Positions 8,379 to 28,180 of a stretch of DNA of 64,000 nt are shown here, piece after piece (the stretch's first letter is position 1; each line of letters begins with the position of its first letter). The notes under the pieces were generated by a model. That model saw nothing but the letters and a program-made list of their open reading frames with translations, was not told where the DNA came from and ran no database searches. The translations under genes were made by a program, and so were the position numbers. The DNA comes from Ruegeria faecimaris. Its GTDB lineage: Bacteria; Pseudomonadota; Alphaproteobacteria; Rhodobacterales; Rhodobacteraceae. The stretch covers positions 62,001 through 126,000 of the forward strand of contig NZ_FXTE01000003.1 in assembly GCF_900182615.1 (NCBI RefSeq). The letters are read 5' to 3'.

Positions 8379-8898
8379 TCCAAACAGGGCCATCAGACCA
8401 AAATGCCCGGTCTGCCGCATTGAATACTAGCTTCCGCAGGTTTTTGCCTGTGCAGATGTGAATGCCCGTCCCATTTTTGCCCCCGCATTACTGGCTAGTG
8501 GGAACAGGTCTGAGGGCGGCAAAGTGTTTGGCCGGGTCGTATATATGTCAAAAGTGGTTCTTAAATCAAAAGTTTAACTCGCAATTTGTGAAAACTATTC
8601 TTGGTTGACGGTGTGGATGGCAAGCCACCTCAGGAGCAGTACTCCTTCGAAGGGTCCGGGCAGTGCTGTTGTCGAACAAACCATCATTTTAAATTGGGCT
8701 GTTGAAACATTATCCGGCCTATTGCCGTCAGCAGAGGATCGGCTAGAGGTAGGTTAACGTGTTATTGGCGAAGGTATGGATCCGTCATCCGATCTGGAGG
8801 ATTTGGCGCAGGTCGAATAGTGACCGAGAATGCCCCGCTCCGACCCGCCGCCAATTCCGAGGCATGCCGATGCACCGTCTGAAAAAAGGCCTGACCAA
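8379..8898. other. 520-base region without a gene
   Basis: I find no convincing coding sequence on either strand. A weak hairpin follows the upstream stop (CAGACC/GGTCTG arms, 8394-8414). An AT-rich part around 8540-8615 (tatatatg, repeated aaa/ttt tracts, TTGACG) is the likeliest promoter zone for the MaoC-Pta gene. Short open frames on the minus strand near 8754-9004 overlap the real gene out of frame and lack ribosome sites. Confidence 0.4.
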
Positions 8899-10293
8899 AT
8901 GAAGATCCAGGAAAACCGAACCTTTTCACAGCTCGAAGTCGGAGACGAAGCCCAGCTGACACGATTGTGCACGGTTGACGATCTTTACGCCTTCGCCTCG
9001 GCATCGGGGGATCACAATCCTCTGCATCTGGCGGCCTATGACGGTGACGGCGACGGCCACCCTGAGGCAGTGGCCCCTGCGCTTTGGCCCGCCGGTCTGG
9101 TGGCGGCCGTCTTGGGGAATATTTTGCCGGGCGCGGGAACCCAGACCCGCGCGGCCAATCTACGGTTTCACGCGATCGTTCTGGCCGGAGATGAGTTGAC
9201 AGCAGTTGTTCGGGTTACAGAAAAATCCGACGATGGTGATGTTATCTGTACCGCCGAGGTTCGGCGTGTTGGCGACAGCACCCTGGTCCTGAGCGGAGAT
9301 GTCCGAGTCACGCCGCCCGCAAAGCATATGGAATTCGATTCGATAGAGGTGCCGGGACTTATCGTACAACGCCACCGCCATTTCGAAGCGTTGCTGGCGA
9401 AAGCCAGACCCCTTGACCCGATGCCAACTGCTGTTGTTGCACCTGAAGAGCCAAACTCATTGGGGGGTGCTTTGCTGGGGTATAGCAACAGCATTATCAC
9501 GCCGATCTTTGTGGGTGATCCCGGCAAAATCGCTGCCGCAGCCGAGGCACTGGGTGCCGATCTGTCCGGATTTGAAATTATCGAGGCCTATGGCCACCAA
9601 GCCGCCGCCCATCGCGCGGTTGACCTGGTGGTTGAGGGCAGGGCGCAAACACTGATGAAGGGGCATTTGCACACCGATGACCTGTTGCGCGCGGTTCTGC
9701 GCCGCGAAAACGGGTTGAGAACCGGGCGAAGGCTGTCACATATATTCGTTATGGATGTTCCAGGGATGTCGCGTCCGATCATGGTCACTGACGCGGCCGT
9801 GAATATTGCCCCTGACCTCGAAACCAAGGCTGATATTGTTCAGAATGCGATCCATCTGGCACATTCCATCGGGATTGAGACCCCAAAGGTAGGCGTGCTT
9901 TCAGCCATTGAGACGATCAACCCGCGCATGGCGTCGTCAGTTGATGCCGCCTTGCTGTCGAAGATGGCCGAGCGGGGTCAGATCACTGGAGGGTTGGTTG
10001 ACGGCCCCTTGGCTATGGACAACGCGGTCGATCTGAATGCGGCACGCACCAAAGGGATTACGTCCGAGGTGGCTGGTGCTGCGGACATTCTTGTCGCCCC
10101 AAACATAGAAGCAGGCAATATGGTGGCGAAACAGCTGACATTCATCTCTCATGCCGAGGCGGCAGGGATCGTGGTCGGGGCTGCTGCACCGATTATCCTG
10201 ACCTCGCGTTCGGATGATGACGACTCGCGTCTGGCGTCCTGCGCGGTGGCGGCGCTTCATGCATATGCAAGTAAAGGCAAACTCCATGGCTGA
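8899..10293 (+). CDS. Bifunctional MaoC-like enoyl-CoA hydratase / phosphate acetyl(butyryl)transferase
   Basis: A 464-residue fusion. Residues 1-140 form a MaoC-like hot-dog hydratase with the catalytic dyad in SASGDHNPLH (D38, H43). The rest is a phosphotransacetylase/phosphate butyryltransferase domain (about 165-464: LGYSNSIITPIFVGDP, AAHRAVDLVVEG, RTGRRLSHIFVMDVPG, GPLAMDNAVD). It should convert acyl-CoA and phosphate to acyl-phosphate for the kinase that follows. ATG 8899 gives the family's usual start (MKIQENRTFSQLEVGD); an in-frame ATG 23 codons earlier adds a Pro-rich stretch not expected. It overlaps the kinase gene by 8 bases. This domain combination is known in proteobacteria, where the hydratase role is unclear. 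Confidence 0.9.
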   Translation: MKIQENRTFSQLEVGDEAQLTRLCTVDDLYAFASASGDHNPLHLAAYDGDGDGHPEAVAPALWPAGLVAAVLGNILPGAGTQTRAANLRFHAIVLAGDELTAVVRVTEKSDDGDVICTAEVRRVGDSTLVLSGDVRVTPPAKHMEFDSIEVPGLIVQRHRHFEALLAKARPLDPMPTAVVAPEEPNSLGGALLGYSNSIITPIFVGDPGKIAAAAEALGADLSGFEIIEAYGHQAAAHRAVDLVVEGRAQTLMKGHLHTDDLLRAVLRRENGLRTGRRLSHIFVMDVPGMSRPIMVTDAAVNIAPDLETKADIVQNAIHLAHSIGIETPKVGVLSAIETINPRMASSVDAALLSKMAERGQITGGLVDGPLAMDNAVDLNAARTKGITSEVAGAADILVAPNIEAGNMVAKQLTFISHAEAAGIVVGAAAPIILTSRSDDDDSRLASCAVAALHAYASKGKLHG

Positions 10294-11458
10294 CCATGTT
10301 CTGGCACTGAACGCCGGGTCCTCATCACTGAAATTCGCGCTGTACGAACTGGTTGATGACAACCGTCCCAGCATGCGGTGGCGCGGACAAATAGAACGTT
10401 TAGGTGATGCACCACGCCTATTGGCCCAGTCGGCAGGCGGCAGATCAGTAGATCGTCCCCTGTCGAGCACCAAAAGCCATGATGAAGCAATCCACGCATT
10501 TCTTGAAATGGCGCGGGAATATCTTCCTGACATTCATGTGTGCGCGATAGGTCATCGCGTAGTGCATGGAGGAACAGTCTATTCCGAGCCTGTGCGCGTG
10601 GATGACACCGTCATCAACATTTTAGAAGGGTTTATTCCCTTTGCTCCTCTGCATCAGCCCTACAGTCTTGCGGGTATTCGCGCAGCCAGCGCTGCCTTCC
10701 CCGGAACAACTCAGGTTGCCTGTTTTGACACGGCGTTTCATCGCACCCATCCGTGGGTAAACGACACCTTTGCCTTGCCGAAAAGCTACTATGACAAAGG
10801 CGTTCGCCGCTATGGGTTCCACGGGCTGAGCTATGACTACATTTCGAACAAGCTGAAAGAAACGGCACCGGGTCTGTATGATGGCCGTGTGGTTATCGCC
10901 CATCTTGGAAACGGGGCATCCATGTGCGCGGTTTCAGGTGGGCGCGCTGTGGCCTCGACCATGGGGTTCTCGGCGCTTGACGGGTTGCCGATGGGCACGC
11001 GCTGCGGTCAGCTGGATCCAGGTGTCGTGCTGTATATGCTGCAGCAGGACGGAATGACCGCAGAAGAGATTGCCGAAATGTTGTACAGAAAATCCGGCCT
11101 GCTGGGCCTGTCGGGGATATCATCGGATATGCGCACGTTGCTGGCCGCTGATACGCCCGAAGCCCGAAAGGCAATCGACTATTACGTCTTCCGTATCCGG
11201 CGAGAGCTTGGTGCCCTGTCGGCCGCACTTGAAGGGATTGATGCGCTTGTCTTCACCGGTGGCGTTGGTGAGAATGCGGCCCAGATCCGGCAGATGGTTT
11301 GTGATGGAATGCGATGGATCGGGATCGAAATGGATCACGCCAGGAATGCCGATGGTGGAACAGTCCTGTCCACGGATTTCAGTCGTGTCCGGATTCTGAC
11401 GATCCCCACAAATGAGGAGATGGTGATCGCGCGGGCTGCGGTGAATTTTCTGGAATAG
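10286..11458 (+). CDS. ackA: Acetate kinase
   Basis: A 390-residue cytoplasmic acetate/butyrate kinase producing ATP from acyl-phosphate, paired with the transacetylase. Motifs are the first signature LALNAGSSSLKFALYEL, IGHRVVHGG, RRYGFHGLSYDYIS, VIAHLGNGASMCAV, the glycine-rich MGFSALDGLPMGTRCGQLDPG and the adenosine motif VFTGGVGENAAQIR. ATG 10286 (MADHVLALNAGSSS) overlaps the upstream gene by 8 bases, indicating coupling; an ATG 72 bases upstream in frame would give an implausible Arg-rich N-terminus. Specificity for acetate rather than butyrate is inferred from the full length and signature pattern. Confidence 0.94.
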   Translation: MADHVLALNAGSSSLKFALYELVDDNRPSMRWRGQIERLGDAPRLLAQSAGGRSVDRPLSSTKSHDEAIHAFLEMAREYLPDIHVCAIGHRVVHGGTVYSEPVRVDDTVINILEGFIPFAPLHQPYSLAGIRAASAAFPGTTQVACFDTAFHRTHPWVNDTFALPKSYYDKGVRRYGFHGLSYDYISNKLKETAPGLYDGRVVIAHLGNGASMCAVSGGRAVASTMGFSALDGLPMGTRCGQLDPGVVLYMLQQDGMTAEEIAEMLYRKSGLLGLSGISSDMRTLLAADTPEARKAIDYYVFRIRRELGALSAALEGIDALVFTGGVGENAAQIRQMVCDGMRWIGIEMDHARNADGGTVLSTDFSRVRILTIPTNEEMVIARAAVNFLE

Positions 11459-12341: not shown

Positions 12342-13007
12342 TCAATAATCCGCAACCAGCAGGAAATCCGGGATTGTGTCTTCCTCGATTGTCGCAAAGC
12401 GAGGGATCGGCTGTTCGAAGACGTTGTCGGTTCGGTCGTCATTGACGGTAGACACTTCGCCAATCAAACAATCGCCTTTTTCCGCCCAGAACGCGTGCCA
12501 GATACCCGGCATCAAGGTCACGCTTTGACCGGGCTTTAGCCGCAGCAGTTCGCCAGGTTGAAGCGTCACAGGGCAGTTGTCGCTAGGCACGGTCACAGGG
12601 GTATCGCGGTCAATGCCGCCCTGAGGGTCTGAGGCGTAGATTTCCATCACCAGATCGCCACCGCCCCGGTTGATGATATCCTCGGCTTTGACGATGTGCC
12701 GGTGCATCGGCGAAAGCTGCTTGTCCCGCGACACCAGCAGTTTCTCGGCATAGAGCATGCCTTGCCCCTTGTTCAGATCGCTGACATCGCCATTGCGTAG
12801 GGTGAACAGGAACAGGCCAAGTTCGTCAAACCGACCCTGGCCATAGTCGGTTATGTCCCACCCAAGCCCGCGTTCACGGATACCGGCGGCCTGTTCGCTG
12901 CGCATTTTCTCGGGCGACCAATCCGCAAAGGGCGGCAGCACCGCGCCAAAGGAACGGATAAAGGCCTCGGCCTCGGATTTGATTTCGTTGATTTCGGAAC
13001 GTTTCAT
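12342..13007 (-). CDS. D-lyxose/D-mannose isomerase family protein
   Basis: A 221-residue cupin-type sugar isomerase interconverting D-lyxose with D-xylulose or D-mannose with D-fructose. The N-terminus MKRSEINEIKSEAEAFIRSFG is typical of the family. Metal-ligand elements are visible as MHRHIVKAEDIINRGGGDLVMEIYA and the later PGIWHAFWAEKGDCLIGEVSTVNDDRTDNVF. I chose ATG 13007 since it gives this conserved start behind GAAGAAG; an in-frame ATG at 13034 overlaps the kinase stop and has no ribosome site. It is the last gene of the minus-strand glucoside operon. Placed after a fructokinase, it could turn mannose into fructose for phosphorylation. Confidence 0.82.
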   Translation of the reverse strand: MKRSEINEIKSEAEAFIRSFGAVLPPFADWSPEKMRSEQAAGIRERGLGWDITDYGQGRFDELGLFLFTLRNGDVSDLNKGQGMLYAEKLLVSRDKQLSPMHRHIVKAEDIINRGGGDLVMEIYASDPQGGIDRDTPVTVPSDNCPVTLQPGELLRLKPGQSVTLMPGIWHAFWAEKGDCLIGEVSTVNDDRTDNVFEQPIPRFATIEEDTIPDFLLVADY

Positions 13008-13023
13008 CGGCTTCTTCGTTGGG

Positions 13024-13950
13024 TCAGAGTTCATGGGCCCAGGGCGGGTTTGCCCCGGCGCGCGCGACAGTTACAGCGGCGACTTCCGCCCCTTTCGAAA
13101 GGGCTACGCGCAGGGCGTTTGCTGGCAATGTGCGCAATTCGGATTTTGTTAAGTGGCCTGATTGATCTAGGGCGGACAAGACGCCTGCGTTGAAAGTGTC
13201 ACCGGCGCCAACGGTGTCGACGACCTCGACCTTTTTTACGGGAACAGAAACGTCGGACCCGTCTGCAAGATACCCGATCGCGCCTTCGCTGCCCCGGGTG
13301 ACGATCACCACCGAAGGTCCTGCCTGCAGCAACAGCGGAACTTTCTCAGCAAGGCTTTCTGGGCCCGGAATGATCCAGTTCAGATCTTCGTCCGAGACCT
13401 TGACGATATCCGCTTGCGCAATCATGCGGTTCAGCCGGGTGCGATACCGGGTCTGATCCCGGATGAAATCCGGGCGAATGTTTGGGTCCAACATGACGGC
13501 GCGCTCTGATCCAAAGCGGTCAAGCACCGCCGCATAGGCATCTGCGCAAGGCTCGCATGCCAGACTGATCCCGCCCAGATACAGCGCCGAGACCGAGGGC
13601 AGATGGGTTGGCATATCCTCTGGCGTCAACATCCGTCCGGCCGAGTTTTCATCGACGAAACTGTAGGCTGCCTGCCCATCCTTGAGCTGTACAAATGCCA
13701 ATGTAGTCGGGCGGTCCGAGTGGATTACCCGGTCGGAGTCAACATGGCTGGCCTTGAGGGCGGCCATAAGCTGTTGCCCGAACATGTCAGAGGAAAGCCC
13801 GGTCAGCAGACCCACCGGCGTATCCAATCGACCCAGGGCAATAGCCGTGTTGAAAATCGCACCGCCAGAATGGGGCACAAACCCCAGTTCGCCCGAGATC
13901 GTGGGCGTCTCGATCATATCGATCAGGGCTTCACCACAGCATAGGATCAT
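13024..13950 (-). CDS. PfkB-family carbohydrate kinase (probable fructokinase)
   Basis: A 308-residue ribokinase-superfamily kinase, beginning MILCCGEALIDMIE with a substrate-side HSGGAIFNTAIALGRL segment and ending with the PfkB ATP/anion-hole motif DTVGAGDTFNAGVLSAL. Fructokinases of alphaproteobacteria have this pattern and length. It would phosphorylate fructose released from sucrose-like alpha-glucosides by AglA or made from mannose by the next gene. It sits 36 bases after the GH1-glucokinase gene and 16 bases before the isomerase start, within one operon. Fructose specificity is inferred from context. Confidence 0.85.
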   Translation of the reverse strand: MILCCGEALIDMIETPTISGELGFVPHSGGAIFNTAIALGRLDTPVGLLTGLSSDMFGQQLMAALKASHVDSDRVIHSDRPTTLAFVQLKDGQAAYSFVDENSAGRMLTPEDMPTHLPSVSALYLGGISLACEPCADAYAAVLDRFGSERAVMLDPNIRPDFIRDQTRYRTRLNRMIAQADIVKVSDEDLNWIIPGPESLAEKVPLLLQAGPSVVIVTRGSEGAIGYLADGSDVSVPVKKVEVVDTVGAGDTFNAGVLSALDQSGHLTKSELRTLPANALRVALSKGAEVAAVTVARAGANPPWAHEL

Positions 13951-13986: not shown

Positions 13987-16311
13987 CTACCGCCTTAGCG
14001 CATTTTTACAGAAATTGTTAGCGCCAACAATGCCAAATTCATCCTGTTCCGAGACATACAGGTTCATGGATCGGCGCAACTCGCTGAACCGGCCTCCGGC
14101 ATTAAAGGCGTCTCGGAAGGCGTCCTTGAACAGCCAGCGGTTCTTTTCGGCCACGCCGCCCACAAGGAACACGCCACCGGCAGGCATCATGACGATCGCC
14201 AGATCGCCCATGACCGCGCCTAGATGTGTGGTGAACATATGCGCGGCCTTGACGGCATGGGCATCGGTTCCGTCGCGTGCATCCTGAAGGATATCGCGCG
14301 CGGTTCGGGGCTCGGCCTTTGCCCGACCCCCTGCCAGTTCGATGGCCTGATAGAGGATCGGCAAACCCGTACCGCTGAGAAACATTTCCGCCTCAAGTGT
14401 CAGGGTGTCGTCAAAAAAACACTCGGGGGCCACCAGCCGCGCGGCGTTGAATATTTCGACCTCGTCCTGACTTCGGGGCGAGAGGCCGATATGGCCGCCT
14501 TCGCCGGACACCGTGTGATAGCGGCCATTCGAATATAGCAGCGATCCGACACCTAGCCCGGTTCCAGGCCCGACGACCAGACGAGTGCCGGTCGGCGGAT
14601 GCTTGGCCCCTTGCAAGACTTCAACATTGTCATGGGAAATTTCGGCAACAGACCACGCAGCGGCAGTGAAGTCGTTGATCACAAAGGTATGTCGGGCGCC
14701 CGTTGCCTGAGCGATATCATCCTCTGACAGATCAAGTTGGGCGTTGGTCAGCCTGATTGTACCGTTGCGGACAGGTCCTGCCCCGGCGGCAACCACGGCC
14801 CGTGGGTCGGTTCCGATCTCGTCGCGCAGGCTGTGAAAGGCTTCGAGCAATTCGGGCAGCTTGCCGGTGGGGTATTTGTGCAGATCTGTCAGCTCACCAT
14901 TGGTGATAACGCCAAGCCGCGTATTGGTGCCGCCGATATCGGCCACGAGGTTCCAATGGTCGTGCATGGCCCCAGCCGGTTGCGCCAGCGGCAAGGACAC
15001 GGTGCCTCCCGTCAGGGCCTTTTGTACTGCGGTGTAGGATGCCTTGGGTGTCCGTTCCATCGTCTGAAAGTCCACGTCCACAAGGCCGAACCGCTTCTCA
15101 TATCCCAGCGCCCATTCGTAGTTGTCCAGCAGGGACCAGATGAAGTAACCCTTGATCGGCACGCCCTGTGCCAAGGCGTCCTGTACCGCCGATAGATGTT
15201 GGTTCAGATAGTCGATCCGGTCGCTATCCTGCTGCCGTTCGGGGCTGGCCATGCCATTTTCCGTCACCAGAATCGGCAGGTCCCCGGTGTAATCCTGCTT
15301 GGTGCGGGTCAGAAACCGGGTCAGGGCGGCGGGTTCGATCTCCCACCCCATCTGAGTTTTGGGCAGCGGGCCGGCGATTTCCTGCAGACTGGGCCAGGTG
15401 GTCTCCGAAGGCGCAATCAACTTGCGGGTATAGTAGTTCAGACCACACCAATCGACCGGCGTACCGATGATGTCGAAATCATCCTGCCAGCCAGCGGGCA
15501 GGTAGGGCTCTAACCCCTCCCGAACGTTGTCTGGATAGGCCTTGTTGAAAACGCCGCCCAGAAAGAACCGGTTGTAGATGCCGTCATACAGATCAGCCGC
15601 GCGGCGCGCTTCGGGGCTGTCATCTGCGGGTTCGGCCCATTCCAGGTTGAAAACCGCGCCCAGGTTGGACATGCCAAGGCCCCGCATCGCGTCGATGGCG
15701 CTGCCATGGGCCAGAAGGACGTGGTGCATCGCGCGGGCGGTTGCACGGATGTCGCGCAGACCCGGGGCGTGATGGCCTTCGAAATGGCTCAGCCAGCTGA
15801 CGCACCACGGCTCATTTATGGGGGCGACGCTGTACATCCGATCGCCGATGCGGCCCATGATGACCTCGGTGAAATCGGCGAACCACCCGGCGATATCTCG
15901 ATTGCGCCAGCCGCCCAGATCGGCCAGAAACGAAGGTAGTTCCCAATGGTAAAGCGTGGCGCAGGGGCGGATACCGCGTTCCAGCAGCGCATCGGCCAGC
16001 CGATCATAGTAATCCAGCCCGGCCTCATTCACCTGACCACGGCCTTCGGGCAGAACCCGCGCCCAGCTGGTTGAAAACCGGTAGCAATCAAAGCCGCCAT
16101 CGCGCACCAGATCCAGATCCTGCGGGAACCGGTTCAGGTGGTCACAGGCCAGATCCCCGTTTTCATTTCGCACAACATTGCCGGGGGTCCTGGCAAAGGT
16201 ATCCCAATGGGTTTGCCCGGCCCCTCCCTGTGCGTGGCCTTCGATCTGATAGGCCGAGGTTGCGACGCCAAAGAGGAAATCTTTGGGGAAATCAGTGCGG
16301 TTGTATTTCAT
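13987..16311 (-). CDS. GH1 beta-glucosidase fused to glucokinase
   Basis: A single 774-codon frame carrying two enzymes. Residues 1-435 are a complete GH1 beta-glucosidase: start FPKDFLFGVATSAYQIEG, acid/base Glu in NEP (166-168), nucleophile Glu351 in TENG (350-353), and IKGYFIWSLLDNYEW. A 14-residue linker (about 434-448) leads into a complete glucokinase (Glk) from about 450: VADIGGTNTRLG (456-467), INDFTAAAWS, VGPGTGLGVG (580-589) and SGEGGHIGL. Either part alone is normal family length. The product could cleave beta-glucosides and phosphorylate the glucose. No stop or frameshift lies between; Met449 is a possible internal start, but no good ribosome site precedes it. It begins 2 bases after the LacI gene ends. 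Confidence 0.88.
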   Translation of the reverse strand: MKYNRTDFPKDFLFGVATSAYQIEGHAQGGAGQTHWDTFARTPGNVVRNENGDLACDHLNRFPQDLDLVRDGGFDCYRFSTSWARVLPEGRGQVNEAGLDYYDRLADALLERGIRPCATLYHWELPSFLADLGGWRNRDIAGWFADFTEVIMGRIGDRMYSVAPINEPWCVSWLSHFEGHHAPGLRDIRATARAMHHVLLAHGSAIDAMRGLGMSNLGAVFNLEWAEPADDSPEARRAADLYDGIYNRFFLGGVFNKAYPDNVREGLEPYLPAGWQDDFDIIGTPVDWCGLNYYTRKLIAPSETTWPSLQEIAGPLPKTQMGWEIEPAALTRFLTRTKQDYTGDLPILVTENGMASPERQQDSDRIDYLNQHLSAVQDALAQGVPIKGYFIWSLLDNYEWALGYEKRFGLVDVDFQTMERTPKASYTAVQKALTGGTVSLPLAQPAGAMHDHWNLVADIGGTNTRLGVITNGELTDLHKYPTGKLPELLEAFHSLRDEIGTDPRAVVAAGAGPVRNGTIRLTNAQLDLSEDDIAQATGARHTFVINDFTAAAWSVAEISHDNVEVLQGAKHPPTGTRLVVGPGTGLGVGSLLYSNGRYHTVSGEGGHIGLSPRSQDEVEIFNAARLVAPECFFDDTLTLEAEMFLSGTGLPILYQAIELAGGRAKAEPRTARDILQDARDGTDAHAVKAAHMFTTHLGAVMGDLAIVMMPAGGVFLVGGVAEKNRWLFKDAFRDAFNAGGRFSELRRSMNLYVSEQDEFGIVGANNFCKNALRR

Positions 16312-16313
16312 AT

Positions 16314-17345
16314 TCAGAACCTGTTGGGGGCGGGGCCGGTCGAGCCGCCAACTACCAGCTCAGCCTCCAGCAATCTAGTTTTGGCCGGGTCTTCGGGCGC
16401 ATTTATTCGTTCGATCAGCATTTCGGCAGCTATTTCACCGGCCAACCGAACCGAGGATCGCGTGGCGGTGAAGATCGGTACATCCTGCCCGTTTTTCAGA
16501 TAGGACAGGTCGTCATCATGGGCGATCACCGAAACATCGCGGCCCATCTGCAGCCCTGCTTCGTTCAATGCCCGCCGAACTCCGATGGCCGAAATCATTG
16601 ACGAAACCAGGATGGCGGTCGGAGGATTCTTAAGTTGAGCCATATCGCGCGCTTCGTGGTGGCCATATACCTCTGTCATCTCGGCGCTGCGCATCAATTC
16701 AGGGTCCGGTGACAGACCGGCTTGATTCAGGGCCTGCAGGTAACCGGCCCGGCGGCGTTGGGCGAAATCCATATCTTCAAGTCCGTTGATAAGGGCGATC
16801 CGTCGATGCCCCAGGTCAATCAGAAACTGGGTGGCGCGCATGAACGAGCTTTTGTTGTTCACATCAACCCAGTCATAGGGCGCGTCAATTCCAGTGGATC
16901 GTCCGTGCACAATGAAGGGCGCGCCCATGCGATTGAGGACTTCAATCCGCTGCTCGTTCACCTTGGGGCCCTGCAGAACGACACCGTCCACGGCACCACG
17001 CTGAAACAGGTCGCGATAGGCGCGTTCAATAGATGTGTCGTCGGCGCTGGTGAACATCATGTCATAGCCGTGTTCAGCATATCTACGAGCAGCCCCGGCG
17101 ACAAAATCGCCAAAGATTGGGTTCACCATTTCATGCTGGGATGAGCTGGGAATCACGTGCCCGATCACGTGTGATCGACCTGTCGCCAGACCCTTGGCCC
17201 GGCTGTTCGGGCGGTACCCGTGTTTTGTTGCGGCGGCCTGAACCCTTGTGCGCGTGGCTTCGCTGACCTCGGGGTATCCGTTCAGCGCACGGCTGACGGT
17301 TGTTTGGGACAAACCAAGGATTTCAGAGAGCTGCTTAAGGTTCAT
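16314..17345 (-). CDS. LacI-family transcriptional regulator of the alpha-glucoside locus (AglR-like)
   Basis: A 343-residue repressor with an N-terminal helix-turn-helix (LKQLSEILGLSQTTVSRALNGYPEVSEATRTRV), a hinge helix (PNSRAKGLATG) and a periplasmic-binding-like effector domain (VIGHVIPSSS...RRIALINGLEDMDFAQRRRAGYLQAL). It heads the minus-strand operon and faces aglE across 222 bases. A perfect palindrome at 17510-17523 just downstream of the aglE promoter is the likely operator, and a CAAAGCGC half-site sits in its own leader (17353-17360), suggesting control of both arms. The effector is probably a glucoside or glucose, by analogy with AglR of Sinorhizobium. Confidence 0.87.
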   Translation of the reverse strand: MNLKQLSEILGLSQTTVSRALNGYPEVSEATRTRVQAAATKHGYRPNSRAKGLATGRSHVIGHVIPSSSQHEMVNPIFGDFVAGAARRYAEHGYDMMFTSADDTSIERAYRDLFQRGAVDGVVLQGPKVNEQRIEVLNRMGAPFIVHGRSTGIDAPYDWVDVNNKSSFMRATQFLIDLGHRRIALINGLEDMDFAQRRRAGYLQALNQAGLSPDPELMRSAEMTEVYGHHEARDMAQLKNPPTAILVSSMISAIGVRRALNEAGLQMGRDVSVIAHDDDLSYLKNGQDVPIFTATRSSVRLAGEIAAEMLIERINAPEDPAKTRLLEAELVVGGSTGPAPNRF

Positions 17346-17567: not shown

Positions 17568-18836
17568 ATGAAACACTCGCTTTATGCTGGCGTCGCCGCA
17601 TTTACCCTGATCGGGGGCGTCGCACAGGCCGACAAGGTTACCGTATTCGGCCCGTGGCTGGGGCCGGACCAAGAGAATGTCGAAAAGGTTCTGGATGGGT
17701 TCGCGGCGGCGACCGGGCATGAGTACAGCTATGTCGGCTCGGACAGCTTTGAGCAGCAAATCAGAATTGATGCCGAAGCCGGATCGGCTCCCAACGTAGC
17801 AGTGTTCCCTCAGCCCGGTCTGGCGTCAGATATGGCCAAGGCAGGTTTCCTGACTCCCCTGAGTGAAGGAACCGCGGATTGGATTCGCGACAACTATGCG
17901 GCTGGTCAGTCCTGGGTGGATCTGGGAACCTACCAAGGTCCGGACGGGCAGGATCACCTATATGGCTTCTTCTACAAGGTCGACGTGAAGTCGCTGGTTT
18001 GGTTCGTGCCGGAAAACTTCGAAGATGCCGGTTATGAGATTCCGACTACGATGGAAGAGCTCAAGGCGCTGTCCGATCAAATCGTTGCTGATGGCGAAAC
18101 GCCATGGTGCATCGGGCTGGGTTCCGGCGGAGCGACAGGTTGGCCAGCGACTGACTGGGTTGAAGACATGATGCTGCGCACGTTGCCGCCCGAAGATTAT
18201 GACGCCTGGGTCGCCAACAAATTGAAATTTAACGATCCTAAGGTTGTCGCCGCGATTGAAGAATTCGGAGCGTTTGCGCGCAACGATGATTACGTGGCCG
18301 GCGGAGCCGGCGCGGTTGCAACGACTGACTTCCGTGACAGCCCGAAGGGCATGTTCAGCTCGCCTCCGCAATGCTACATGCACCGTCAGGCTTCGTTCAT
18401 TCCGGCCTTCTTCCCTGAAGGCACGGTTGTGGGCGAGGATGCCGATTTCTTCTATTTCCCGGCCTATGAAGGTAAGGATCTCGGCAGCCCGGTCCTTGGG
18501 GCCGGAACAGTTTGGGCAATCACCAATGACAGCCCGGGCGCGCATGCGCTGATGAAATACCTGGAGACACCCGAGGCGCATGAAGCCTGGATGGCTCTGA
18601 CCGGGTTCCTGACGCCGCACAAAGGCGTCGATACCTCGGTCTTCTCAGACCCAACGCTGAAGAAGATGAACGACATTCTTCTTGGTGCAACGACGTTCCG
18701 GTTTGACGGTTCTGACCTGATGCCGGGCGGCGTGGGTGCAGGCACCTTCTGGACTGGTATGGTCGACTATACGGGCGGAACACCTGCCCAGGACGTCGCC
18801 GACGAAATCCAATCCTCGTGGGACGCGCTGGACTAA
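17568..18836 (+). CDS. aglE: Alpha-glucoside ABC transporter substrate-binding protein
   Basis: A 422-residue periplasmic carbohydrate-binding protein (family 1 SBP). A Sec signal peptide is clear (MKHSLYAGVAAFTLIGGVAQA, cleavage about residue 21). The mature part begins DKVTVFGPWLGPDQENVEKVLDGFAAATG, as in AglE proteins, followed by SVDVKSLVWFVPENF-like and FRDSPKGMFSSPPQCYMHRQ segments. AglE of Sinorhizobium binds sucrose, trehalose, maltose and related alpha-glucosides. It is the first gene of the operon, behind a LacI operator, and is followed by a strong intercistronic hairpin that probably raises its expression over the membrane components. Confidence 0.92.
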   Translation: MKHSLYAGVAAFTLIGGVAQADKVTVFGPWLGPDQENVEKVLDGFAAATGHEYSYVGSDSFEQQIRIDAEAGSAPNVAVFPQPGLASDMAKAGFLTPLSEGTADWIRDNYAAGQSWVDLGTYQGPDGQDHLYGFFYKVDVKSLVWFVPENFEDAGYEIPTTMEELKALSDQIVADGETPWCIGLGSGGATGWPATDWVEDMMLRTLPPEDYDAWVANKLKFNDPKVVAAIEEFGAFARNDDYVAGGAGAVATTDFRDSPKGMFSSPPQCYMHRQASFIPAFFPEGTVVGEDADFFYFPAYEGKDLGSPVLGAGTVWAITNDSPGAHALMKYLETPEAHEAWMALTGFLTPHKGVDTSVFSDPTLKKMNDILLGATTFRFDGSDLMPGGVGAGTFWTGMVDYTGGTPAQDVADEIQSSWDALD

Positions 18837-18849
18837 AGCGTCTGAGATT

Positions 18850-18875
18850 GGGCAACCCGCTCTGCCGGGTTGCCC
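18850..18875 (+). other. Intercistronic hairpin between aglE and aglF
   Basis: Arms GGGCAACCCG and CGGGTTGCCC with a 6-base loop. It begins 14 bases after the aglE stop and has no T-run, so it fits an mRNA-stabilising or attenuating element rather than a simple terminator. It would let the binding protein be made in excess, as known for malE-malF. Confidence 0.7.
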
Positions 18876-18902
18876 GAACCTATCGTCGCAAGGGAGAGCG
18901 GC

Positions 18903-19910
18903 ATGCACCCGGCATTTCAAGGCCTGCTGACCATCGCCATCGGCGTGTCAGGTTGCGTGGGCTACTTCTATCTATCCAATCAGTTTCTGGACAAAGTTCT
19001 GTTCCCGCCTCGGGGGCCGAATGCTGGCCGGAATATCAACCGCGCGAACATGATCCGGCCTTGGTTGTTTCTGTTCCCAGCGCTGGCTGCTTTGGGCTTG
19101 TATCTGGCCTATCCGGTTGTCGAAACCCTACGCCTGTCACTGACTGATCGTGTCCCGGGCGGCGGCTACAAATGGGTCGGGCTGGACAACTATATCCAGA
19201 TGGCCAAGGAGCCCAAGTTTTGGGAAGCCATGCGCAACAACATGTTATGGCTGATCGTGGTGCCTGCAATGTCGACAGCGTTTGGCCTATTGGTGGCTCA
19301 GCTGACCGACCGCATCCGCTGGGGCAACATCGCCAAGTCTCTGATTTTCATGCCGATGGCCATCTCGTTCGTGGGGGCCTCGGTGATCTGGAAGCTGGTC
19401 TATGACACCCGTCCGGTTGAGCAGGACCAGATCGGGATGCTGAACGCGCTTTACATCTTTTTCGGAGGGGTCGAGCCGCAGACATGGTTGACCATTCCCT
19501 TCTGGAACAGCTTTTTTCTTATGGTTGTGCTGGTCTGGATTCAGACTGGTTTTGCCATGGTCATCCTGTCAGCCGCCCTGCGCGGCATTCCCGAGGAAAC
19601 CATCGAAGCTGCCATTCTGGATGGGGCCAATCCGTTCCAGATTTTCTTCCGTATCAAGGTGCCGCAGATCAAGACCACCATCCTGGTGGTCTGGACCACG
19701 ATCACCATCACTGTGCTCAAGGTATTTGACATCGTGTTTGCCATGACAAACGGCCAGTGGGAAACGCAGGTTCTGGCCAATTACATGTATGACAAGCTGT
19801 TCCGCACCAATGACTGGGGCGTGGGCTCGGCTTCGGCCATGGTGATCATGCTGCTGGTGGCACCGATCCTTGTCTGGAATGTGCGCAATGCGCGCAAAGA
19901 GATGGAGTAG
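18903..19910 (+). CDS. aglF: Alpha-glucoside ABC transporter permease
   Basis: A 335-residue inner-membrane permease. It has the AglF-type extra N-terminal helix (GLLTIAIGVSGCVGYFYL), then a conventional six-helix core with the EAA loop (EETIEAAILDGANPFQIFFRIKVPQI). ATG 18903 follows GGGAGAG and gives the expected N-terminus; an ATG at 18870 in frame lies close to the hairpin and lacks a ribosome site. It forms the channel with AglG, powered by AglK. Its stop is three bases before aglG. Confidence 0.9.
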   Translation: MHPAFQGLLTIAIGVSGCVGYFYLSNQFLDKVLFPPRGPNAGRNINRANMIRPWLFLFPALAALGLYLAYPVVETLRLSLTDRVPGGGYKWVGLDNYIQMAKEPKFWEAMRNNMLWLIVVPAMSTAFGLLVAQLTDRIRWGNIAKSLIFMPMAISFVGASVIWKLVYDTRPVEQDQIGMLNALYIFFGGVEPQTWLTIPFWNSFFLMVVLVWIQTGFAMVILSAALRGIPEETIEAAILDGANPFQIFFRIKVPQIKTTILVVWTTITITVLKVFDIVFAMTNGQWETQVLANYMYDKLFRTNDWGVGSASAMVIMLLVAPILVWNVRNARKEME

Positions 19911-19913
19911 GCC

Positions 19914-21062
19914 ATGAGCGAAATAGCAGGAACCAAACCCGCCCTTCGCTGGGCTGTCCATGCCTCGGTTCTTTTTCTGGTCGTGCTCTGGGTGGTGCCG
20001 ACGCTGGGGCTGTTGATCTCATCCTTTCGTACTGCCGACCAGATTGCCACAAGCGGCTGGTGGCGGTCGTTGTTCCCATCCGAGCAGAACCTGACCCTGC
20101 GCGCTGCAGCACCTGAAACTCAGGTGCTGGAGAATGGCGTTTACGTGATCGAAGGCAACCTGTTCGAGGCGGGCACACAGGCGGCGATCTCAAAATGGGG
20201 CACCAGTTCCCGGGCGATTGATGATTTTGTACCCGGTGACACGGCAGAGCTGCGCAAGGGTGGCACGATCACGGTGGATGCCGACGGCAAATACCGGATG
20301 GAAAACACCGAAGAATTCACCGGCAGTCGCGGCACGCGCGTCTTTGTGACGGCGGAACTGCCTCCCGAGTTCACCCTGGCCAATTACCACAAGGTCCTGC
20401 TTGCTGAAGACAGCACTGACAGTATGGGGCGGGCGTTTTTCAACACGCTGACGGTCACGATACCGGCGACGATCATTCCGATCCTAGTAGCCGCCTTTGC
20501 CGCTTATGCGCTGGCTTGGATGGATTTCCCAGGTCGGGCACTGTTAATCGCCGCGGTTGTTGGCCTGTTGGTGGTGCCGCTGCAACTGGCACTGATCCCA
20601 CTGCTGAAATTTCACCTGAGCATCGGAATTGAGAAAGGCTATCTGGGCGTCTGGATGGCCCATACCGGGTTCGGGATGCCATTGGCCATCTACCTGTTGC
20701 GCAACTACATGGCCGGGCTGCCGCGCGATCTGATCGAAAACGCACGTGTAGACGGCGCGACCGAGTTCCAGATCTTTACCAAACTGATCCTGCCACTCAG
20801 CTTTCCGGCATTGGCGTCTTTTGCCATCTTCCAATTTCTCTGGACTTGGAATGATCTGTTGGTTGCCAAAGTGTTCCTAATCGATGCGTCCGGCCAGACC
20901 ACAGTGATGACAAACCGGATTGTCGAGCTGCTTGGAACGCGGGGTGGAAACTGGGAAATCCTTGCCACGGCGGCGTTCGTCTCGATCGCTGTGCCGTTGG
21001 CTGTTTTCTTCGCAATGCAAAAATACCTGGTCCGTGGTCTGCTGGCCGGGTCGGTCAAATAG
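19914..21062 (+). CDS. aglG: Alpha-glucoside ABC transporter permease
   Basis: A 382-residue permease. After the first helix it has a roughly 100-residue periplasmic insertion (about 60-160: LRAAAPETQVLENGVYVIEG... VTAELPPEFTLANY), characteristic of AglG and longer than in MalG. The remaining helices and EAA motif (RDLIENARVDGATEFQIFTKLILPLSFPAL) are standard. It ends in YLVRGLLAGSVK, the usual carbohydrate-permease tail. It is cotranscribed with aglF and aglA. Confidence 0.9.
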   Translation: MSEIAGTKPALRWAVHASVLFLVVLWVVPTLGLLISSFRTADQIATSGWWRSLFPSEQNLTLRAAAPETQVLENGVYVIEGNLFEAGTQAAISKWGTSSRAIDDFVPGDTAELRKGGTITVDADGKYRMENTEEFTGSRGTRVFVTAELPPEFTLANYHKVLLAEDSTDSMGRAFFNTLTVTIPATIIPILVAAFAAYALAWMDFPGRALLIAAVVGLLVVPLQLALIPLLKFHLSIGIEKGYLGVWMAHTGFGMPLAIYLLRNYMAGLPRDLIENARVDGATEFQIFTKLILPLSFPALASFAIFQFLWTWNDLLVAKVFLIDASGQTTVMTNRIVELLGTRGGNWEILATAAFVSIAVPLAVFFAMQKYLVRGLLAGSVK

Positions 21063-21071
21063 AGGCGTCTG

Positions 21072-22727
21072 ATGAACGTGCAGAACACAGCAGAACTTTC
21101 CAATGCAACCAAGGTGGCCGCTGACTGGTGGCGTGGTGGCGTCATCTATCAGATCTATCCGCGCAGCTTTCAGGACAGCAATGGTGACGGGATCGGAGAC
21201 CTGAAAGGCATCACCCAGCGATTGGGGTACATTGCCTCTCTGGGCGTTGATGCGATCTGGATTTCGCCCTTCTTCAAATCTCCGATGAAGGATTTCGGAT
21301 ATGACGTCAGCGACTATCGCGATGTTGATCCGATGTTCGGCACGATGGAGGATTTTCGGGACCTGCTGGATCACGCCCATGCCCAGGGGTTGAAGGTGAT
21401 GATTGATCTGGTTCTGTCGCACACGTCAGACCAGCACCCTTGGTTCAGCGAAAGCCGCGCCAGCCGTGAAAACGCCAAATCCGATTGGTATGTCTGGGCC
21501 GATCCAAAACCGGACGGTACGCCGCCGAACAACTGGTTGTCGATTTTCGGGGGCTCGGCCTGGCAGTGGGACTCGCGACGTTTGCAGTATTATTTGCACA
21601 ACTTCCTCACCTCGCAGCCGGATCTGAACTTTCACTGTCCGGATGTGCAAGACGCCTTGCTGGATGTTGCCAGGTTCTGGCTTGATCTGGGTGTCGATGG
21701 GTTTCGTCTGGATACAATCAACTTCTATTTCCACGACGAACAGTTGCGAGATAATCCTGCCCTGCCCGTCGATCAGCGCAATGCCTCAATCGCGCCGATG
21801 GTAAACCCGTATAACCATCAGGACCACCTGTTCTCCAAAAGCCAGCCCGAGAACATTGCCTTTCTGGAACGCCTGCGGGCCCTGACCGATCAATATGAAG
21901 GTCGCGCCTGTCTGGGCGAGGTGGGCGACGCACAGCGCGGGCTTGAGATAATGGGCGAATACACCAGCGGTAATAAGCGCATGCACATGTGCTATGCGTT
22001 TGAGTTCCTTGAAAAGCGCGCTTTGACTGCCAGCTATGCACAGCAGGTATTTGATCAGCTCGAGGACAAAGCAGGTGATGCCTGGCCTTGCTGGGCATTT
22101 TCGAACCATGACGTGGAACGTCACGCGTCGCGCTGGCGTCTGGACGATGCAGCCGCCAGACAGCATGCAGTTTTGATGATGTGCATGCGCGGCTCGGCCT
22201 GCTTGTATCAAGGCGAAGAGTTGGGCCTGCCCGAGGCGGACGTGGCCTTTGACGATCTGCAAGACCCGTATGGCGTCGAATTCTGGCCTGAGTTCAAGGG
22301 CCGCGACGGATGCCGGACGCCGATGGTTTGGGCTGCGCAGGATGAACAATCGGGCTTTAGCACCGGCAAGCCTTGGTTGCCTGTCAGTGACCCTCAGGCC
22401 GAGCGTGCCGTGGATCGATCAGAGGCTGAGCCCAAGTCCATGCTTCACCACTATCGTCGTGCGATTGCATTCCGCCATGCCCATCCGGCTTTGATGTTGG
22501 GGGCGCAAAAGAACATGACGCAGATCGGGACCGTTTTGACCTTCACGCGTGAAGATCAAGCGGAAGAGGTGTTCTGCGCATTTAACCTCGGTACCGAACG
22601 TTCCGAAGTAATCTTGCCAGGCTGGAACTGGCGCGTGATCGGAGAAGAGCTGGGTGGCGTCGCGGGAACGGGGACAGTGTCTCTGGGTGCTGCACAATTC
22701 TGCCTGCTGTTGAGGGAGAAGGAATAA
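21072..22727 (+). CDS. aglA: Cytoplasmic alpha-glucosidase, GH13
   Basis: A 551-residue GH13 enzyme without a signal peptide, hydrolysing imported alpha-glucosides. Motifs are WWRGGVIYQIYPRSFQDSNGDGIGDL at the N-terminus, conserved region I VMIDLVLSHTSDQHPWF, the nucleophile Asp214 in DGFRLD, the general acid Glu283 in CLGEVGD and the third carboxylate in FSNHD (Asp347). The product is glucose, plus fructose if sucrose is the substrate, matching the glucokinase domain and fructokinase in the divergent arm. Position inside the transporter operon is as in Sinorhizobium aglEFGAK. Confidence 0.92.
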   Translation: MNVQNTAELSNATKVAADWWRGGVIYQIYPRSFQDSNGDGIGDLKGITQRLGYIASLGVDAIWISPFFKSPMKDFGYDVSDYRDVDPMFGTMEDFRDLLDHAHAQGLKVMIDLVLSHTSDQHPWFSESRASRENAKSDWYVWADPKPDGTPPNNWLSIFGGSAWQWDSRRLQYYLHNFLTSQPDLNFHCPDVQDALLDVARFWLDLGVDGFRLDTINFYFHDEQLRDNPALPVDQRNASIAPMVNPYNHQDHLFSKSQPENIAFLERLRALTDQYEGRACLGEVGDAQRGLEIMGEYTSGNKRMHMCYAFEFLEKRALTASYAQQVFDQLEDKAGDAWPCWAFSNHDVERHASRWRLDDAAARQHAVLMMCMRGSACLYQGEELGLPEADVAFDDLQDPYGVEFWPEFKGRDGCRTPMVWAAQDEQSGFSTGKPWLPVSDPQAERAVDRSEAEPKSMLHHYRRAIAFRHAHPALMLGAQKNMTQIGTVLTFTREDQAEEVFCAFNLGTERSEVILPGWNWRVIGEELGGVAGTGTVSLGAAQFCLLLREKE

Positions 22728-22730
22728 ACC

Positions 22731-23813
22731 ATGTCAGAGCTAAACCTCACAGATGTAGCCAAAACCTATGGCAATGTGGATGTTCTGAAGAACATCAATC
22801 TTGAGATTGAGCGGGGCGAGTTGATCGTTTTCGTCGGGCCTTCGGGCTGTGGCAAATCCACCTTGCTGCGCATGGTCGCCGGGTTGGAAAAGATCTCGGG
22901 CGGAACGCTCGAGATTGAAGGGCAGGTGATGAACGATGTGCCGCCAGCACAGCGAGGTATCGCGATGGTGTTCCAAAGCTATGCGCTGTACCCGCATATG
23001 ACCGTTCGCGAAAACATGGCCTTTGCGCTGAAGATAGCCAAAATGCCGGCGGCTGAAGTTGGCGCCGCGGTCGATCGGGCGGCCCGCATCCTACAGCTTG
23101 AACCTTATCTGGACCGGTTGCCCAAAGCGCTATCCGGTGGTCAGCGTCAGCGTGTCGCAATCGGGCGCGCCATTGTTCGCGACCCCAAGGTTTACCTGTT
23201 CGACGAACCGCTTTCGAACCTGGACGCGGCGCTGCGTGTCGCCACCCGGATCGAAATCGCTCGCCTGAAAGAGGCGATGCCGGACAGCACGATGATCTAT
23301 GTCACCCATGATCAGGTCGAAGCGATGACATTGGCCAGTCGGATCGTCGTGCTGGCCAACAAGGGGATCGCTCAGGTTGGGACGCCGCTGGAACTATATG
23401 AGACGCCCGACAATGAGTTTGTCGCGCAATTCATCGGTTCACCAGCAATGAACCTGCTGCCCGGAGTGATCACTCAAACTGGTGCGCAGACTGTCGTAAA
23501 ACTGGACGGTGGCGGAAAGGCCGTTTCGGCGATTGCAACCGAGGCCGATGACGAAGGCAAGCAGGTGAAGATTGGCGTGCGACCCGAAGATTTTGTGTCT
23601 GTTGACGGCGATCCAATTCTCGAAGGAGTCGTGGACTTTACCGAAGCCCTGGGTGAGGTGACGTTATTATATTTCGCGGTCGAGGATGGGACGGATGCCC
23701 TTATTGCCAAGCTTCCGGGCGTTCAGAAGAATATGCGGGGCAAGACCGTGATGGTCTCTGCGAATCCTGACAAGGTTCATTTGTTCCATCAGGGTGTTTC
23801 CATGCGGAAATAA
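22731..23813 (+). CDS. aglK: Alpha-glucoside ABC transporter ATP-binding protein
   Basis: A 360-residue ATPase of the MalK/UgpC type: Walker A GPSGCGKST (36-44), signature LSGGQRQRVAIGRAIVR, Walker B VYLFDEPLSNLDA, and a C-terminal OB-fold regulatory domain with KIGVRPEDFV. It energises AglFG. GGAGAAGGA precedes ATG 22731. It is the last gene of the operon; no strong terminator is seen in the 50 bases before the next promoter, so read-through into the following operon is possible. Confidence 0.92.
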   Translation: MSELNLTDVAKTYGNVDVLKNINLEIERGELIVFVGPSGCGKSTLLRMVAGLEKISGGTLEIEGQVMNDVPPAQRGIAMVFQSYALYPHMTVRENMAFALKIAKMPAAEVGAAVDRAARILQLEPYLDRLPKALSGGQRQRVAIGRAIVRDPKVYLFDEPLSNLDAALRVATRIEIARLKEAMPDSTMIYVTHDQVEAMTLASRIVVLANKGIAQVGTPLELYETPDNEFVAQFIGSPAMNLLPGVITQTGAQTVVKLDGGGKAVSAIATEADDEGKQVKIGVRPEDFVSVDGDPILEGVVDFTEALGEVTLLYFAVEDGTDALIAKLPGVQKNMRGKTVMVSANPDKVHLFHQGVSMRK

Positions 23814-26533: not shown

Positions 26534-28180
26534 ATGATCCGCCTAAGCTCGATCCGGCCGAGTAATCTTGTTTTGCTCGCCGCTGCCCCGTTCATCATCT
26601 ACCTGTTTGCCTCATCCTCGAAATATCTGAGGTCATTGGTTGCCATTTTGGGGATTGGTGAAAATGCGGGGCCCATTTTTGTTGGGTTTCTTCTGATACT
26701 GGCCGTGGCCATATTGGCCTATCTCTCGGCGCGCCGCATCCGGTTTCAAACCATCGCGCCGAACTGGTTGAGGATTGCGGCGGTTTTGGCAATCCCGGCC
26801 TCGGCCGGGTTGGCGATCCTTGGACTTTTCCAGCCTCAGGTGCTGATGCCCTTTGCGGAATCCGTCTTCTTTAATGCGCTCAGCGAAAATACGTCTGAGT
26901 TCATTGACCGATCTTCGCAACCTTGGGTCTTGTTTCCCGAGATCGTCGCAAAGGTGCAAATGAGACTACAGGCCCTGCTGGTAGGGTTTGCGATGGTGGT
27001 CGCGGTGATCCCTCTGACGGCCCGTTTCCCACGATCCATGAAAGCCTATGTTCAGATTGGACTCGAACTGCTGACCGGTCTGGTTTTGTTTTACCTGTTG
27101 TTTCTTGCGCATTGGCAATTTGCGACCGGGATCGCGATAACGTTCCGTGCAGCGATCTTTGCCTATATCTTTGCGGCCATTATGGGTCTGGTCTGGGTCG
27201 GTTTGCAGTCCTTCAAGCCCAAAGCTCGGACAACCGTTGTCTATGGGTCCATCAGCCTGACACTATTGGCCGTGTCGGCGTTCTTTTTTATGCAACCAAA
27301 GGTGAGCTTTGTTCTGGTTGGCAGTACTGAAGCAAGAATTGCCATTGTTCGGGGTACGCCGCAGGCCCAGGCGGATTTGATCCGGTTCGGAGAGTTCGAC
27401 GGAGGTGAAGGCCAACAGTATCGCATTCGCAGCGCCCCCGATGCCGCCTCTGCGCTGGATCAGATCACAACCGTCGACAGCGTATCTGGTGCTTTTGTTC
27501 CGGCCGGCGTTCATACGCAGGGCTATCCGGTGATCTGGCAATCCAGTTTTCTGCCGGACAAGTTTCGTAACCCGGCGCTGACTTTTGCGGTTTTCGGGTT
27601 TTTGCTTCTGACACTGACGGTCGGAGGCGCACAGCATAAGCTACATCCGCTGGCTGTAGGGGCCGAGTTTTTTGTCGATACCATTCGCGGCATTCCAATG
27701 CTGGTCATCATCCTCTATATCGGCTTGCCGCTTGCCGGTGCGGTCAAGGATGCGACAGGTGGCGGCATCGACATGACCAACATGACCCGCGGCATCATCG
27801 CCATTTCCATAGGGTATTCGGCCTATATGGCCGAGATTTTCCGATCAGGGATCGAGGCCATCCCACGAGGTCAGATCGAAGCAGGCGGCTCGCTTGGGCT
27901 GTCCCGCTGGCAGACTGCCCGGCTTATTATCCTGCCCCAGGCATTGCGCATAGTGACGCCACCTTTGGGCAATGAATTTATCGCGATGATCAAGGATACC
28001 TCATTGCTGTCCATCCTGTCGGTCCGCGACATGACTCAGCGCATGCGCGAGTTTCAGGCCTCAAGTTTTCTGCCCTTCGCACCATTCAACACAGCGGCGA
28101 TCCTCTATGTCGTGGTGACGCTTGGTTGCGCTAGTTTCCTCAAATGGATCGAACGCCGCAGCGCACGGGAAAACCGATGA
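26534..28180 (+). CDS. Amino-acid-type ABC permease with extra N-terminal membrane and periplasmic domains
   Basis: A 548-residue protein, over twice the usual 220-250. Residues about 350-548 are a standard HisM/GlnP-type permease domain with the EAA loop GIEAIPRGQIEAGGSLGLSRWQTARLIILPQALR (439-472). Before it are at least six hydrophobic segments (around 11-27, 48-65, 80-98, 145-162, 174-192, 205-223) and another at 235-253. A predicted periplasmic stretch of some 90 residues (256-343) then follows. I do not recognise that stretch. No GlnQ-type ATPase gene is present anywhere in the window, so it must borrow one. It follows the family 3 binding protein and overlaps the beta-galactosidase start by four bases (ATGA). 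Confidence 0.8.
   Translation: MIRLSSIRPSNLVLLAAAPFIIYLFASSSKYLRSLVAILGIGENAGPIFVGFLLILAVAILAYLSARRIRFQTIAPNWLRIAAVLAIPASAGLAILGLFQPQVLMPFAESVFFNALSENTSEFIDRSSQPWVLFPEIVAKVQMRLQALLVGFAMVVAVIPLTARFPRSMKAYVQIGLELLTGLVLFYLLFLAHWQFATGIAITFRAAIFAYIFAAIMGLVWVGLQSFKPKARTTVVYGSISLTLLAVSAFFFMQPKVSFVLVGSTEARIAIVRGTPQAQADLIRFGEFDGGEGQQYRIRSAPDAASALDQITTVDSVSGAFVPAGVHTQGYPVIWQSSFLPDKFRNPALTFAVFGFLLLTLTVGGAQHKLHPLAVGAEFFVDTIRGIPMLVIILYIGLPLAGAVKDATGGGIDMTNMTRGIIAISIGYSAYMAEIFRSGIEAIPRGQIEAGGSLGLSRWQTARLIILPQALRIVTPPLGNEFIAMIKDTSLLSILSVRDMTQRMREFQASSFLPFAPFNTAAILYVVVTLGCASFLKWIERRSARENR

Follow-up and report, generated by a model that had tools for sequence, protein, structure and literature searches.

A predicted beta-glucosidase-glucokinase fusion of Ruegeria that outlives the death of its beta-glucosidase half

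A single reading frame of Ruegeria faecimaris joins a GH1 beta-glucosidase to a glucokinase (Glk), and, judging from the genomes compared, this fusion survives the death of one of its two enzymes. The stop-free fused frame was found in 50 of 54 Ruegeria genomes, and in 19 of these 50 the GH1 half appears catalytically dead. Because the 19 fusions with a dead GH1 half have been kept, the fusion outlives beta-glucosidase activity, which we regard as the new part of this work and the finding of most worth. The frame lies in a 64,000-nucleotide stretch of DNA, referred to here as the window. Our preferred reading, to which we give a probability of roughly two in three, is that a bifunctional GH1-Glk protein arose once and that, after the GH1 half died, the kinase stayed on a shrunken barrel that would provide its translation start and probably a scaffold. 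In the window strain itself, the protein is most likely a working bifunctional enzyme. The fused frame and its parts in the window are as follows.

13987..16311, minus strand: GH1-Glk fusion gene, 774 codons plus stop, read from 16311 down to 13987
15031..16296, minus strand: GH1 beta-glucosidase module, residues 6-427 (PF00232, TIGR03356)
15811..15813, minus strand: codon of Glu167, within the motif NEP, which is present in 31/31 intact fusions and 0/19 dead fusions
15259..15261, minus strand: codon of Glu351, within the motif TENG, present in 31/31 intact fusions and 0/19 dead fusions
14956..15009, minus strand: linker, residues 435-452, homologous in intact and dead fusions
14005..14949, minus strand: glucokinase module, residues 455-769 (PF02685); its best solved relatives are glucokinases, including E. 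coli 1q18
14998..15000, minus strand: Val438 codon (GTG), closely preceded by GGAGG; a possible internal start that is not conserved
14965..14967, minus strand: ATG codon of Met449, without a Shine-Dalgarno match; the codon is not conserved

The first-pass annotation had described a complete GH1 and a complete Glk in one uninterrupted frame at 13987-16311. The coordinates were correct, to which the minus strand can now be added, and the 774-aa product is encoded without a stop, with both Pfam modules nearly full. PF00232 scored 446.6 bits over residues 6-427 (cut-off 22.6), and PF02685 scored 227.6 bits over residues 455-769, covering profile positions 1-312 of 314 (gathering cut-off 22.1). 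The GH1 half exceeded the curated beta-glucosidase equivalog cut-off of NCBIfam (TIGR03356; 537.5 versus 478.5 bits), and the Glk half scored below that of the glk equivalog TIGR00749 (178.5 versus 225.45 bits). The two catalytic glutamates named previously were found where they had been placed, within NEP and TENG, which begin at residues 166 and 350, respectively; we take Glu167 to be the GH1 acid/base and Glu351 to be the nucleophile. The linker, estimated before at about 14 residues with no stop, is indeed stop-free, and its length is revised to about 16 residues by aligned ends (GH1 end at 436 by structural alignment, first Glk strand at 453) or 27 residues by Pfam ends. The window genome has a single GH1 match and a single PF02685 match, both of which are the fusion. 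In the structure model of the window protein (mean pLDDT 88.2, pTM 0.68), the GH1 half matched GH1 structures with Z-scores of 50.9-52.1 over 416-436 residues among the best 50 matches. The placement of GH1 relative to Glk was not fixed by this model, as reflected in its pTM.

The genes around the fusion are listed below.

16314..17345, minus strand: LacI-family regulator directly upstream of the fusion; the sequence immediately preceding the fusion start lies within its 3' end
17568..23813, plus strand: divergent agl-like set (solute-binding protein, two permeases, GH13 glucosidase and ABC ATPase)
13024..13950, minus strand: PfkB-family sugar kinase downstream of the fusion, also beside 19/19 dead fusions
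12342..13034, minus strand: D-lyxose/D-mannose isomerase-like gene (PF07385, 319.9 bits)

The first four genes of the agl-like set were assigned by Pfam, and the ATPase by its ORF and the same order in named Ruegeria records. The agl-type gene order beside a LacI regulator, "agl" presumably being the name for this type of glucoside operon, is present in the window and in Ruegeria loci, and the fusion locus looks like a glucoside-uptake operon. Elsewhere in the window, positions 8830-11458 hold what we take from the sequence to be two genes, one MaoC-like/phosphate-acyltransferase and, after it, one for acetate kinase; in several Ruegeria loci, relatives of the acetate kinase gene are found close to the fusion. 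The gene at 28144-30141, presumably of the GH42 type, has relatives (43-45% identical) directly upstream of nine dead fusions and of the kinases without GH1. On the megaplasmid of Ruegeria sp. TM1040 (L196), the same operon start occurs with a GH1 gene that has no glucokinase listed as its neighbour.

The fused frame is genuine, and most of the Ruegeria genomes compared have it. Among the 54 genomes, 31 carry an intact fusion of 774-778 aa, 19 carry a dead-GH1 fusion of 611-707 aa, two have a GH1-less kinase that belongs to the same clade, and two have neither. All 31 intact-fusion genomes have one PF02685 match each, inside the fusion; PF00232 likewise has one match in 30 of them, and G221 has a further fragment. 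The two kinases of the fused clade that lack a GH1 module (G234 and G241) lie behind a GH42 gene. In G241, just a short stretch separates the GH42 gene from the kinase, which is split by contig ends and whose two pieces were read apart. The G234 frame has GTG and TTG but no ATG among its first 50 codons. These kinases (L162 in G234, L165/L166 in G241) are possible escapes from the fusion. The kinase of G225 is distant (about 30% identical), and G222 gave no PF02685 match.

Outside Ruegeria, no stop-free match spanning both modules occurred among the matches listed for two family samples (198 and 394 genomes), a class sample (385 genomes) and a phylum sample (398 genomes). A strongly diverged fusion could be missed, because matches were listed best first and, in the 394-genome family sample (393 genera) and the class and phylum samples, at most two candidates were scored per genome. 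The search for the same domain order in Rhodobacteraceae that had been proposed earlier thus returned a stop-free order in Ruegeria only, among the matches listed. Of the earlier suggestion of a Roseobacter-specific fusion, the narrow taxonomy stands and the breadth does not, since Ruegeria alone was represented among the listed rows of the two family samples. In other genera of the family, a shared frame covers both modules but is broken by one or two stops within the match, as in at least 48 listed rows outside Ruegeria from the 394-genome sample, one of which ends at residue 714. L088 and L104 are examples of such neighbouring beta-glucosidase and glucokinase genes, in the same frame and parted by stops. 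Stop loss would fuse neighbours of this kind. Among the open-licence full texts searched, no description of a GH1-Glk fusion was found, in agreement with the earlier remark that this is not a well-described enzyme.

In the Glk tree, where many branches around the fused clade and its relatives are long, the 50 fused kinases and the kinases of G234 and G241 formed one clade with a support of 100/99, suggesting a single origin of the fusion. Its nearest relatives were the adjacent kinase of Actibacterium pelagium, which is 43% identical and groups with the fused ones, and seven kinases located elsewhere in other genera; identities ranged over 40-47%. The remaining 11 of the 12 sampled adjacent kinases of other genera fell outside the fused clade, in another Glk clade with about 26-34% identity, indicating that the partner kinase of the fusion differs from the usual operon neighbour. 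The "dead" label requires three changes on the Glk tree, two of which are forced by starred branches. We take this to mean that the GH1 half died at least twice, with a regain of GH1 by recombination also conceivable. An rpoB tree (FastTree) was tried as a species tree and was not relied on, given its low support and its conflicts with the Glk tree; on it, eight GH1 deaths would be needed if death is irreversible.

The preferred course of events can be outlined from these data. The N-terminal GH1 would split an imported beta-glucoside, and the C-terminal glucokinase would phosphorylate the glucose for central metabolism, both activities presumably residing in a single expressed chain. The sampled fusions would descend from one event in their common ancestor, inside a glucoside operon under LacI control, and from then on the kinase may have kept no conserved start of its own. 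With the break-up of the operon, the GH1 half would have lost catalysis and its active-site loops. In 19 genomes, the shrunken barrel would now supply the translation start of the kinase and, probably, a folded N-terminal scaffold; in two genomes, the GH1 half would have been lost altogether.

NEP and TENG are altered in all 19 dead fusions: Glu remains at position 167 in one and at position 351 in four, and none has both. A separate intact GH1 is present in an agl-like operon in 12 of the 19 genomes, and the other seven have no further GH1. The stand-alone GH1s of these genomes, which might have split off from the fusion, fall in one clade with the fused GH1s (100/96), which is poorly resolved internally. 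A tblastn search with the kinase over as much as 2 kb behind each of 13 stand-alone GH1s gave no match at E up to 1; one of them had only 104 bases behind it. On the flank opposite PfkB, seven dead fusions have isomerase/LacI2 genes, nine have a GH42 gene and three have neither. The LacI gene is gone from the dead-fusion loci, where traces of its 3' end remain: tblastn matched the LacI C-terminus just upstream at E up to 0.01 in five of the 19 and more faintly in others. In 16 of the 19, AACAGG still precedes the start. ROK kinases were checked as glucokinase substitutes in the 54 genomes; a ROK match occurred in 51, mostly in frames of about 400-430 aa, which we assume to be of the repressor type. 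ROK frames of 326 aa and 333 aa were found in G248 and G241, respectively, and a ROK match was absent from G200, G213 and G220.

Compared with the window protein, the dead GH1 halves show 57 distinct deletion blocks, an upper figure for the deletion events since the rows are related, and the frame stays open through all of them. The alignment contains no residues inserted relative to the window protein, and the 5,990 codons of the dead GH1 halves are free of stops; under neutral drift, at 0.5 substitutions per site, about 6 stops per 290 codons would be expected. The lack of stops comes partly from choice, because the frames were picked as open; still, 50 of 54 genomes carry such a frame. The beta-to-alpha loops of the catalytic face, which make up 194 of 433 positions, take 1,879 of the 2,256 deleted residues (83%). 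This count was matched by three of 432 circular label shifts, with loop, strand and helix labels set by hand from the window model and with 19 rows that are not independent; moreover, surface loops are more easily lost in any protein. By class, the deleted share is 51% for catalytic-face loops, 10.8% for helices, 7.9% for strands and none for alpha-to-beta loops, and residues 1-12 are never deleted. The N-terminus and residues 131-140 and 191-220 are conserved patches in 18 of the 19 dead rows.

A model of one dead fusion (L116, from R. halocynthiae; pLDDT 87.7, pTM 0.73) has eight strands in the barrel part. Its residues 1-287 aligned with the GH1 enzyme SghA, a chain of 454 residues, over 284 residues at 1.9 Å (Z 30.6), and its Glk part aligned with 1sz2 over 313 residues at 2.0 Å (Z 36.1). 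The dead GH1 half is predicted to be still a full (beta-alpha)8 barrel, which we call likely rather than proven because intact GH1s in the predictor's input alignment may favour a barrel.

The median pairwise dN/dS (NG86; rough at high dS) of intact fusions was 0.056 for GH1 and 0.116 for Glk (after the dS filter, which left 133 of 465 pairs). The corresponding values were 0.234 and 0.058 in dead group I (25 of 28 pairs) and 0.250 and 0.060 in dead group II (13 of 21 pairs), with G203, G216, G228 and G199 outside both groups. The closest dead pair, G200/G201, gave 0.58 from few changes, nearer to neutral. The dead GH1 halves have thus risen to about 0.24 from 0.06 and are still well below 1, indicating that constraint is relaxed and not gone.

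These patterns bear on what holds the dead GH1 half in place. A credible but tentative alternative is that it is kept as a leader only: as the kinase would have no start of its own, a stop or frameshift would be lethal to the kinase, and the barrel would be idle. Such a leader agrees with the absence of a complete glutamate pair from every dead form, the approximately fourfold relaxation of dN/dS together with the 0.58 of the closest pair, the well-preserved N-terminus and start region, and the complete GH1 loss that G234 and G241 show to be possible. However, the median dN/dS remains about a quarter of the neutral value, and the deletions have removed catalytic-face loops and left the barrel strands and alpha-to-beta loops mostly in place. 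Moreover, a few codons would suffice for a leader, yet none of the 19 dead GH1 halves is shorter than 274 codons.

A larger role for the barrel is conceivable but somewhat doubtful, namely that in many Ruegeria the loop-stripped dead TIM barrel, captured by fusion, now serves the glucokinase as a pseudoenzyme with a structural or regulatory role. The same reading, held no more firmly, would have the active-site loops stripped off and the scaffold kept, a loss that the Glk tree would place in at least two lineages. The barrel is not needed everywhere, because the kinases of G234 and G241 lack the GH1 module.

It is unlikely that the frame gives rise to two products, the GH1-Glk protein and a free Glk whose translation would begin within the frame, at Val438, at a codon near 427 or at Met449. 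The GGAGG before GTG438 in the window does count against our preferred reading, since a separate kinase could also be made from it; the same GGAGG precedes the TTG of residue 440. Additionally, RefSeq gives a separate "ROK family protein" starting at residue 427 or 429 in three strains whose fusions are intact and stop-free, and leaves the GH1 part blank, in a table from which pseudogenes and genes lacking a protein accession are omitted. Against this, internal starts are not conserved: the 26 codons before the kinase motif contain an in-frame ATG, GTG or TTG in 41 of the 50 fusions and none in the other nine, and a 5-base Shine-Dalgarno match precedes an internal candidate in one of the 50, the window strain only. 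Met449, considered in the first-pass annotation as a second start, fared no better, with GTG, TTG or codons such as ATA, AGA, CTC and CTA at this position in many members. A strong internal-start reading was also considered and dropped, as the candidate starts are not conserved.

We consider it improbable that the fusion is kept for substrate hand-over, in which the GH1 site would supply the Glk site with glucose directly or at a high local concentration. Both motifs are intact in 31 of 31 intact fusions and both halves are under strong purifying selection, as hand-over would lead one to expect. Yet hand-over cannot explain the persistence of the dead fusions, 19 of the 50, which lack a GH1 active site. 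Furthermore, other genera keep separate genes, glucose diffuses fast, and the domain arrangement was left loose by the window model. Finally, the idea that a sequencing or assembly error joined two genes is refuted: a frameshift or stop between the modules, which the first-pass annotation had named as the case against the fusion, is excluded by the recurrence of the open 774-778-residue frame in 30 further Ruegeria genomes (31 of 54 in total) and by stop-free fusion frames on plasmids of Ruegeria sp. B32, THAF33 and AD91A whose records are complete.

The window protein resembles GH1 beta-glucosidases (TIGR03356; Thermotoga maritima 1od0 and Agrobacterium SghA, 6rjk) in its full-length match and in the NEP and TENG glutamates, and differs from them in its added C-terminal glucokinase; 19 relatives lack the active site and much of the loops. 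With glucokinases of PF02685 (E. coli Glk, 1q18/1sz2), it shares a full-length match, whereas the fusion adds an N-terminal GH1 and scores under TIGR00749. Separate GH1 and Glk genes of other Rhodobacterales (L088, L096) share the LacI-GH1-Glk order beside an agl-like transporter, but there the genes are separate and the kinases mostly (11/12) belong to another Glk clade. The regulator/glucokinase fusion (NF010701, PRK14101) also contains a glucokinase, and the window Glk matches it at 141.7 bits against a cut-off of 920; unlike the window protein, which has no regulator module by Pfam, it carries Glk first and a regulator as the partner.

These fusions also pose a practical annotation problem, as they are hidden under "ROK family protein" or "family 1 glycosylhydrolase". 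RefSeq gives a dead fusion as one 614-residue CDS, and two dead fusions are annotated "family 1 glycosylhydrolase". In the annotated examples L194, L195, L197 and L198, both names are misleading.

In Ruegeria, the fusions of 774, about 700 and about 620 residues, together with two kinases without the module, make up a graded natural series, in which catalysis would be lost first and the active-site loops next, the fold and the frame would stay, and the domain would only rarely be shed. Such a series offers a way to test whether domains become trapped by fusion and how scaffolds of pseudoenzymes come about.
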